Below are positions 33,419-58,603 of a DNA stretch of 64,000 nucleotides, one piece after another. Both the position numbers and the translations under genes were made by a program. The notes under the pieces were generated by a model. That model had not been told where the DNA came from. It saw only the letters and a program-made list of their open reading frames with translations, and made no database searches. Every line of letters starts with the position of its first letter. Positions within the stretch are counted from its first letter, which is position 1. Source of the DNA: Fibrobacter sp. UWB11 (lineage in GTDB: Bacteria; Fibrobacterota; Fibrobacteria; Fibrobacterales; Fibrobacteraceae); contig NZ_FSRT01000001.1 in the NCBI RefSeq assembly GCF_900143015.1, positions 1,860,001-1,924,000 on the forward strand. The letters run 5' to 3'.

Positions 33419-33455
33419 ATCCTTCAGAGCGCTTGCTCTCGCAAAAGCGTGCAAA

Positions 33456-33498
33456 ACGAGCGTCGCGAAATTATGCTTGCATAATTTCATGACCGAGT
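33456..33498. repeat. palindromic element, intergenic copy
   Basis: Ends ACGAGCGTCGCGA and CATGACCGAGT around a perfect palindrome AAATTATGC/GCATAATTT. The same ends, around CATGC/GCATG, occur inside the coding region of the RlmL-like gene at 45880-45918. The two differ in the stem but keep pairing. Confidence 0.8.
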
Positions 33499-33525
33499 AA
33501 AGCCGCGGACGCTGAAAGCGTCAAT

Positions 33526-45506: not shown

Positions 45507-45526
45507 CAATTTTTATATTGCAGTCC

Positions 45527-47101
45527 ATGAGTGACGCCTTCGACAAACGCATCAAAAAGCACATCATTGGAAAACCGCATCGTTTTTTGGCGGTAGTGCC
45601 ACTCGGTTTCGAACAAACGCTCATTAACGAACTTAAGTCCATAGGCGTCGAAACATTCAATGCAAATAATCCTGCCGATCAGCCTCACATTGTTGGGGAC
45701 GGCAAAGTTGAATTCACTGCAAAAATAACGGAAGCCTGGAAAGCGGTCGCATTCAGTCGCATTGCAAATCGCGTACTGATGCACATTGCAGACTTCAAAG
45801 CAGAAAACTTCCGCGAGCTCGAAAAGAAAGCCGCAGAAATCCCGTGGGAATTGTATTTACCAGACGACAAATGCGTAGGACGAGCGTCGCGACCATGCTT
45901 GCATGAGCATGACCGAGTCCAGCATTTGGGATTAGAGCGAAGCGATAATCCAAAGACAAGCAACGTCATCCCGAACTGCGCGAGGGATCCAGTTAAGTTC
46001 ACCAACGCATTAAACATTCACGTTACTTGTAAACATTCTCGCCTGTACCACAGCGATGCCATCGCTGAACGTTTATATAAAATAATAAAAGGGGTAAGCC
46101 TCCCCCTCGCTCCTGCCGACACGGCATCCGCTACCCCCTCTGCGGGGGCACCCCGCAACGCCCCGATGCAAAACCTATACGTTACCCTCATTGATGACCG
46201 TTGCACCATTTGGCAAGACCTCGCCGGAGAAGAGCTCTACAAGCGCGGCTTTGAGCGATTCGTGAACGACGCCCCGCTCAAAGAAACCATAGCCGCTGCG
46301 ATGATCTTCGAAGCTATAGAGATCCTTCGACTTCGTGCTACGCGCTCCACTCAGGATGACACTGAACATCCGCGAAACATCACCCTTATCGATCCGATGG
46401 CCGGCAGCGGCACATTCAGTCTCGAAGCCGCCAGCATTGCAAATAAAATCATCCCCGGCATATGCAGAGATTTTGCCCTCAAGCATCACCCCGCCTTTAA
46501 AGAAGCCACCTGGAATTTTATTACGCGAAGCGGCACACCGAACGATACAAGAAACAACACACCTTCACACGTCACCCTGAGCGAAGCAAAGGCCCCAGTA
46601 AAGTCTTGTAATGCGACAAAGCTTCCCATCATCGCTAAAATTCTAACGAGCGACATTTCCGAACGCTCCATCAAAATCATCAATCACAACGTAGATTGCA
46701 GCCCGCTCGCAAGCATCGAGCCTAAGCCCATCACTCCGCAAATCCGCGACTTTTTCTCTTATACTGCAAAAGAAATCGCAGATGCAAGCGGCAAAGCCTC
46801 CCCCATTATCGTACTGAATCCACCCTACGGCAAGCGTCTCGATTTCGATGCCCCAAAGCTATATACAAAAATAGGCCGTAAGCTTACAGAGCTTGGAAAC
46901 GACCTTAAACAGTTCCACAAAGAACTTACGGTTGCCATCCTTGCACCCAAAGACGACACCCACGTAGGTTCCAAATATACTTGCACATCAAATCTATTGC
47001 GCGAATGTTCCGCGTTATCGCCCAAGCGCAATCCCACAGCAAAGCAAATCGTCACCAGCCATGGCGGATTTAGCCTTAATGTGTTTATCGCCAAAGTTTA
47101 A
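45527..47101 (+). CDS. RlmL/YpsC-type RNA methyltransferase with inserted repeats
   Basis: A 524-residue THUMP plus class I methyltransferase protein, like the N-domain of RlmL that makes m2G in 23S rRNA. An N-terminal ferredoxin-like/THUMP region (1-116, 158-188) is followed by the catalytic domain: D-P-M-A-G-S-G-T (SAM motif) and N-P-P-Y-G-K-R-L (catalytic). Homologs are about 380-410 residues; here four extra segments at about 117-157, 189-213, 267-283 and 334-365 contribute about 115 residues. All fall between conserved blocks and are encoded by palindromic repeat DNA of intergenic type. The frame stays open, so the enzyme may be active. The ATG at 45527 is chosen; no ribosome site is visible. 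Confidence 0.85.
   Translation: MSDAFDKRIKKHIIGKPHRFLAVVPLGFEQTLINELKSIGVETFNANNPADQPHIVGDGKVEFTAKITEAWKAVAFSRIANRVLMHIADFKAENFRELEKKAAEIPWELYLPDDKCVGRASRPCLHEHDRVQHLGLERSDNPKTSNVIPNCARDPVKFTNALNIHVTCKHSRLYHSDAIAERLYKIIKGVSLPLAPADTASATPSAGAPRNAPMQNLYVTLIDDRCTIWQDLAGEELYKRGFERFVNDAPLKETIAAAMIFEAIEILRLRATRSTQDDTEHPRNITLIDPMAGSGTFSLEAASIANKIIPGICRDFALKHHPAFKEATWNFITRSGTPNDTRNNTPSHVTLSEAKAPVKSCNATKLPIIAKILTSDISERSIKIINHNVDCSPLASIEPKPITPQIRDFFSYTAKEIADASGKASPIIVLNPPYGKRLDFDAPKLYTKIGRKLTELGNDLKQFHKELTVAILAPKDDTHVGSKYTCTSNLLRECSALSPKRNPTAKQIVTSHGGFSLNVFIAKV
45875..45997. repeat. in-frame palindromic insert 1 (three units)
   Basis: Contains ACGAGCGTCGCGA ... CATGACCGAGT (matching intergenic 33456-33498), then TTGGGATTA ... 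TAATCCAA (hairpin), then GTCATCCCGAACT ... GGGATCCAGTTA (like intergenic 58569-58603). It encodes about 41 residues not expected in the family. Confidence 0.8.
46091..46165. repeat. in-frame palindromic insert 2
   Basis: GC-rich DNA with TGCCG-ACA-CGGCA and CCCCC-TCTGC-GGGGG hairpins. It encodes a Pro/Ala/Ser-rich stretch of about 25 residues between two conserved blocks of the methyltransferase. Confidence 0.7.
46319..46363. repeat. in-frame palindromic insert 3
   Basis: GAGATCCTTCGACTTCG ... CGCTCCACTCAGGATGACA with ATCCT/AGGAT outer pairing, a common bacterial intergenic repeat type. It encodes about 17 residues between FEAIEI and NITLIDPMAG. Confidence 0.7.
46526..46621. repeat. in-frame palindromic insert 4
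   Basis: Holds CACGTCACCCTGAGCGAAGC and GGCCCCAGTAAAG, the same repeat class as the GTCAT(G/C)CTGAG-type elements. It encodes about 32 residues rich in Thr, Asn and Ala. Confidence 0.65.
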
Positions 47102-58551: not shown

Positions 58552-58568
58552 ACTAGGCTTTCAATTTC

Positions 58569-58603
58569 GTCATGCTGAGGGCAAAAAGCCCGAAGCATCC
58601 AGT
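58569..58603. repeat. GTCATGCTGAG-type palindrome, intergenic copy
   Basis: GTCATGCTGAGGGC-AAAAA-GCCCGAAGCATCCAGTT: ATGCT...AGCAT outer and GGGC/GCCC inner pairing. It shares ends with part of insert 1 in the RlmL-like gene. Confidence 0.75.

Follow-up and report, generated by a model that had tools for sequence, protein, structure and literature searches.

Palindromic repeats lying in frame within genes are already known from other bacteria. The Rickettsia palindromic elements (RPEs), about 150 bp long and of several families, interrupt conserved genes of unrelated function, TruB included, without breaking the frame, and R. conorii is reported to have 44 of them, nearly half in genes (PMC10969869, PMC3733652). 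REPs tagged with CGTC, among them RPE-4, RPE-6 and dRS3, are without a known dedicated transposase, and REPs occur inside genes of many species from several phyla, with TruB and uvrA among the hosts; TruB is a host in Rickettsia and in several Proteobacteria (PMC3733652). Heptanucleotide arrays of the TAACTGA type consist of tandem 7-mers spread through a genome (PMC4679880). A search of the literature, mostly open-access papers, found no report of in-frame palindromes for Fibrobacter.

Here we analyse a 64,000-nucleotide stretch of a Fibrobacter chromosome (the window), in which a sequence-only reading had proposed that palindromic repeats entered an RNA methyltransferase gene. It rightly named Rickettsia as a precedent, to which the REPs inside genes of many species (PMC3733652) have to be added. 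New are the phylum, a two-hairpin family that we call F1, and the re-use of identical loops with nested insertion. The Fibrobacter repeats resemble RPEs in being in frame in unrelated genes (RlmL, TruB, CoaBC and a gene for a 377-aa protein). F1 nevertheless differs from RPEs by description: it has two hairpins and an asymmetric core that does not vary, its filled and empty sites are clean and show a duplication of 3 nt, and it is confined to the Fibrobacteraceae among the genomes searched, apart from one weak match in the order.

Repeat blocks in an RlmL-like gene

The extra DNA in the window gene consists of dispersed repeats that occupy four loops (A, B, C and D). The features of the gene and their intergenic relatives are as follows, R1 being the covariance model of F1.

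45527..47101, plus strand: intact RlmL-like 23S rRNA methyltransferase gene, ATG at 45527, alternative TTG at 45518 in the same frame
45862..45867, plus strand: AGACGA, on the left of F1; nearly all in-gene copies have this hexamer or heptamer beside them
45868..45928, plus strand: F1 hairpin I, 61 nt, coding for KCVGRASRPCLHEHDRVQHL; R1 match at 45878-45920 (63.0 bits), with covariation
45929..45951, plus strand: F1 hairpin II, 23 nt, GGATTA-GAGCGAAGCGA-TAATCC; stem changes in other copies preserve pairing
45964..45991, plus strand: block A2, degenerate CGTC-type REP, CGTC-ATCCC..GGGAT-CCA; also in the relative G004, without F1
46088..46172, plus strand: block B, a dispersed unit rich in GC, SLPLAPADTASATPSAGAPRNAP; matched 6 times in its own genome and 26 times in G016
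46319..46361, minus strand: block C, reversed CGTC/TGTC-type REP with a decayed palindrome; the genome sample holds another copy with 90% identity
46570..46597, plus strand: block D, CGTC-type REP CGTCACCCTGAGCGAAGCAAAGGCCCCA; G004 and G014 have its orthologue, and G001 has heptamers plus F1 instead
33454..33500, plus strand: F1 core between genes, its stem different and longer; R1 match of 51.9 bits, E 5.2e-13
58568..58601, plus strand: intergenic CGTC-type REP, CGTC-ATGCT..AGCAT-CCA, read directly; single-strand fold z −3.03

The frame (45518/45527-47101) is matched by PF22020 (RlmL_1st) and PF01170 (UPF0020) of Pfam, and the solved homologues are 3ldu, 3k0b, 3ldg and 3v97. Orthologues are present in most genomes of the genus and are open in almost all. 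Comparison of the window gene with five relatives gives a dN/dS of 0.10–0.14 in conserved columns, and the 28 aligned sequences all contain the motifs GSGTF and LNPPYGKRL unchanged. The core of the gene is under purifying selection, and the gene is not a pseudogene. That the locus is a pseudogene, a case that the sequence-only reading had itself raised, or an assembly artefact is hardly credible: nothing besides the oddity of the blocks speaks for it, and against it stand the intact frame, open in almost all orthologues, a dN/dS near 0.12, the invariance of GSGTF and NPPYG in the 28 sequences, and the recurrence of the pattern in independent assemblies and named records. An AlphaFold model of the protein, made with 28 orthologues, was discarded at pLDDT 50. 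The blocks were placed by alignment to solved homologues and not by a predicted model; where the blocks sit, the chain of 3ldu and others forms a short loop or a variable linker. With this placement and the dN/dS of the core, the earlier suggestion that the enzyme tolerates inserts between its conserved blocks holds.

The four blocks reported earlier lie exactly where the orthologues of the genus vary in our alignment. Their size, put at about 115 residues, was somewhat high, since the protein has 527 aa and the shortest full-length orthologue 436 aa, a difference of about 90. Nor is every block hairpin-forming, as had been supposed. Significant single-strand stability among the in-gene blocks is limited to the F1 unit (45868-45960, z −2.80); block B is marginal (z −1.46), and no stable fold is seen for A2 at z 0.40, for C, taken on its own strand, at z 1.35, or for D2 at z 0.18. 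A2, C and D2 are decayed palindromes, recognised by sequence and not by stability, and blocks C and D are old, common to relatives, with the palindrome lost.

The blocks are not of one kind. Block A (45868-45951) is a two-hairpin F1 unit that adjoins the CGTC-type REP A2; C and D are REPs of the same type, B is a third dispersed unit, and heptamer arrays appear in other species. The CGTC tag is found at 45964, 46570 and 58568, with TGTC at 46361 on the minus strand. The stem starts with ATCCC in A2, ATCCT in C and ATGCT at 58568, D beginning with AC, and the tail is CCA in A2, D and the 58568 element and CTC in C. In A2 the tag, the AT start and the CCA tail match the description in PMC3733652; the 58568 element folds as 5+4 bp with a 5-nt loop, the described REP having a stem of 8–9 bp and a loop of 4–5 nt. 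A2, D and the 58568 element are like CGTC REPs in tag and tail, and apparently in their short stem; C is a TGTC variant. They differ from them in phylum, Fibrobacterota not being among those of PMC3733652, in the longer loops with a GAGCGAAGCGA core, and in the decay of the in-gene copies. Both intergenic elements to which the gene's units had been likened are confirmed: that at 33456-33498 is a true relative of block A, and that at 58569-58603 belongs with A2, C and D among the CGTC-type hairpins.

Structure and distribution of the F1 element

F1 is a unit of about 85–93 nt made of two hairpins. In the window gene, hairpin I comprises P1 (CAAATGC/GCATTTG), a tandem G.A core (CGAG..CGAG), a 3-bp helix, a GC/AU internal loop and a CTTG-capped stem. 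Aligned copies share C-GAG-N-[3 bp]-GC-R-[stem]-Y-AT-[3 bp]-CGAG and differ in their stems; the 3-bp helix occurs as GTC/GAC, GTT/AAC, GAT/ATC, GCA/TGC, GAA/TTC and others, and the core is preceded by GTAG, GTAA, ATAA, AGAA or CAAA. Changes on both sides were found in 14 of 17 pairs of the alignment, in which 90.4% of cells pair, compared with 37–38% when the partner was slid by one column. Among 29 matches in 800 kb, aligned by fitting to the model, double changes occurred in 15 of 15 pairs. The covariation is overwhelming, and the pairing-preserving stem changes first noticed in a few copies are massive across the family. G-U accounts for 6 of 1066 stem pairs in 133 distinct F1 cores from fetched loci, despite very diverse stems, and this scarcity points to maintenance as a DNA palindrome or to arm-copying (template-switch) mutation. 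We set aside a role for F1 in 3'-UTRs as regulatory RNA: in 800 kb the copies point either way with respect to genes, and the rarity of G-U pairs fits DNA palindromes better. Rfam gave no family above chance scores on the window and the F1 loci.

By BLAST, F1 copies were detected in 21 of 24 genomes of the genus and in none outside it in that set. The block A unit matches dozens of sites in the genus, some of them 97–98% identical over 90–93 nt in unrelated places. R1 matches all 49 genus genomes and 10 of 17 other Fibrobacteraceae; in the order there is a weak match in one of two genomes, and none of the 53 others of the phylum is matched. The exact F1 pattern had no match in viral contigs. 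In the window R1 has exactly two matches (63.0 bits, E 2.5e-16, and 51.9 bits, E 5.2e-13). Gene-wide counts refer to 400-kb stretches of two genomes; that of the window's own genome (G000) holds 14 copies, suggesting about 130 in the genome, and the RlmL copy is the only one of this sample in frame within a conserved gene.

F1 is akin to the GTAG REPs of the RAYT system as a short dispersed hairpin partly found within genes, but it has no conserved GTAG end, and its own genome lacks a Y1 transposase. With MITEs it shares a target-site duplication, seen in rRNA-leader copies, and no clear terminal inverted repeats were found by eye. F1 therefore falls outside the GTAG definition and fits that of MITEs only in part. 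We also observed a recurrent composite in which F1, with a P1 of CAACTC or CAACCTC, lies inside a CGTC-type REP, in the order GTCATCCTGAGCGAAGCGAAG, F1, GGGGCTTTGCCCC, ATCCAGTG (G000:C1:1743297-1743339, L056:9681-9723, L063:15697-15743 and others).

Filled and empty sites

F1 also resides in 16S rRNA leaders, with the 16S gene on one side and the conserved motif GATTGAAGGAATCGGAGATGTGCTTAGTGACG of the leader on the other (L107:97-175, on contig C8 of G000; L106, L111, L112 and L119), and its presence differs among the rrn copies within G014, G069 and G003. The filled leader of the own genome reads GTCAA-ATT-(AATCAAGAGGCGAG...GGTATCGCC)-ATT-TACG, and the empty leader reads GTCAA-ATT-TACG in G014 (C5 and C7) and in G069 (C7). 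Further pairs are G036 versus G082 (ATT) and G003 versus G010 (AAT). The target-site duplication is thus 3 nt (ATT/AAT), seen at the rRNA-leader copies only, and these sites are without heptamers. A duplication of this size marks transposition as DNA, and the filled and empty leaders that carry it lead us to conclude that F1 transposes.

A dedicated enzyme presumably moves the elements. Mobilisation by a RAYT was rejected because the Y1 transposase (PF01797), present in 7 of 24 genus genomes, was not found in the own genome; retroposition was rejected since reverse transcriptase (PF00078) was not found there either. The 3-nt ANT duplication brought up an IS5-like transposase, which we took to be a candidate, and this too was rejected, PF01609 (DDE_Tnp_1) and PF13359 (DDE_Tnp_4) not being found in six genomes. 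We put forward, tentatively and with some doubt, that F1 may be a mobile structured element of a class not described before, proper to the family Fibrobacteraceae; its invariant core (the tandem G.A pairs, the covarying 3-bp helix and the GC/AU internal loop) would be recognised by machinery other than Y1, reverse transcriptase or common DDE enzymes.

Within genes we count about nine in-frame F1 events, in both orientations, in the genes for RlmL, TruB, CoaBC and the 377-aa protein. In loop A of RlmL, F1 is present in G000 and missing from G004, which does have the adjoining CGTC REP; loop D has heptamers plus F1 in G001 and a CGTC REP in G014; a reversed F1 lies in loop B of the L208 gene, and F1 lies in loop E in G006. 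TruB contains F1, heptamers and a CGTC REP in G000 and G004, and none of these repeats in G014, where the gene is 99% identical beyond the site. TruB alleles without F1 have heptamers and a CGTC REP in G006, or heptamers and another GTCAT-type hairpin in G019, and these alleles reveal the order of insertion and the nesting. In the CoaBC of G020, F1 lies between the two domains; the CoaBC of G019 has it reversed. Relatives without F1 exist for both the TruB and the CoaBC sites. The central proposal of the sequence-only reading, that repeats spread into coding DNA in frame, is borne out by the filled and empty F1 alleles of RlmL and TruB in close relatives.

Nearly all in-gene F1 copies have AGACGA on both sides, and a 3-nt duplication is unreadable there because the copies sit in AGACGA repeats. 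Such flanks, together with the arrays that alone occupy the same loops in relatives, would also suit a carriage of repeats from linker to linker, with no transposition into genes at all, through recombination or template switching among the heptamer arrays (AGACGAG and others) that the loops already contain. We consider this rather unlikely, given that the leader F1 has the 3-nt duplication and no heptamers and that several F1 copies are without a heptamer flank; instead, we infer a shared mechanism of movement for the in-gene subfamily and the copies in rRNA leaders.

Read forward, a CAAATGC-type F1 core has one open frame, the others being closed by TGA in CATGACC and by TAG/TAA in GTAR, so that forward in-gene copies of this type share the peptide DKCVGRxSRP. 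Reverse insertions read through another open frame. The in-frame events are consistent with random landing followed by selection, in which case no mechanism that chooses the frame is needed.

The same loops filled by other repeats

Alignment of 30 RlmL orthologues from 30 species gave conserved blocks with very unequal loops between them: loop A follows WELYL, B AERLYKII, C MIFEA and D FKEATWN, and a further loop, E, lies close to the N terminus. Elsewhere the loops contain AGACGAG heptamers (RRETRDE), CTAACCA heptamers (LTTNHQPLTT), other GTCAT-type hairpins, or nothing. These arrays are dispersed tandem 7-mers like those of the TAACTGA type but are also found in coding loops; a stop-free 7-mer array yields an identical heptapeptide cycle in every frame. 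We compared repeat seeds in 29 long orthologues with codon-shuffled genes, dropping the short F1 seed as non-specific (37 expected by shuffling) in favour of the covariance model. Observed and shuffled counts were 39 and 2.3 for CGTC/GTCAT-type seeds, 24 and 0.6 for AGACGAG heptamers, 22 and 0.1 for CTAACCA/CTAGTAA heptamers, and 13 and 0.03 for the B unit. A chance origin of these seeds in RlmL genes is excluded.

All seven in-gene CTAACCA arrays have an open frame, with CAA standing for the TAA codon; of 19 such arrays in the 800-kb genome sample, 12 have no open frame on that strand. The open frame gained through CAA for TAA is sequence evidence for translation. Known bypass elements consist of a strong hairpin flanked by direct repeats, and F1 likewise has a strong hairpin between direct repeats, so the inserts might be left untranslated through ribosome bypass, or removed from the RNA or the protein. 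This is very improbable, for the frame and the avoidance of stops are kept, the CAA for TAA included, and neither would be needed in an untranslated insert.

The inserted peptides could instead be domesticated and useful, in regulation, RNA binding or localisation. Block B is kept at the same place in many species, and its DNA is 96% identical to the G004 orthologue, slightly above the core stretches tested nearby (87–95%). Against usefulness, unrelated sequences fill the loops in different species, the G003 orthologue has none of the tested repeat units, and the peptide tracks the DNA family and not the enzyme. We therefore regard it as improbable; the insert is probably translated, and tolerated rather than useful.

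Variation of this kind is seen beyond RlmL. The linker between the two CoaBC domains (L174, L075) and one TruB loop (L143-L172) vary among species as the RlmL loops do and contain repeat peptides as in RlmL (GASLPLA..SATPS, CHSERRTE and VIASEAKQS). Separately, one palindrome forms a tandem array in frame in the RlmL gene of G011 (L022, a 621-aa frame), where four GTCAT-type hairpin seeds are spaced 69 nt apart. By eye, several repeat-like in-frame blocks, including RHCEEQSRACHEQSV and SVILSEVEGS, were also noted in a UvrA-like ATPase (G000:C1:1800838, 856-aa frame) and an HrpB-like helicase (G000:C1:1716466, 903-aa frame); some are missing from the G004 orthologues.

We observed directly that the repeats are dispersed, that sites occur both filled and empty, that 3 nt are duplicated in rRNA leaders, that the frame is open and that the gene is under purifying selection. 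Beyond this, we consider it probable that small non-autonomous palindromic families, several of which would inhabit Fibrobacter, gave rise to the blocks, with F1 transposing as DNA and in-frame loop insertions being kept. F1 would duplicate 3 nt of an AT-rich target, and landings between genes would make up most of the surviving copies. The few copies that land in frame, with an open frame, in surface loops or interdomain linkers would be retained. Such loops may then become safe harbours for later elements, which would nest there, a heptamer array being followed by a CGTC REP and then by F1, while selection would hold the frame open and the enzyme working.

These findings extend in-frame selfish DNA to a new phylum and add a mobile hairpin family, not described before, whose empty sites can be read. 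The same enzyme loops have been filled repeatedly by unrelated repeats, which makes an old question testable: how mobile DNA comes to lengthen the linkers of proteins, and which loops tolerate insertion.
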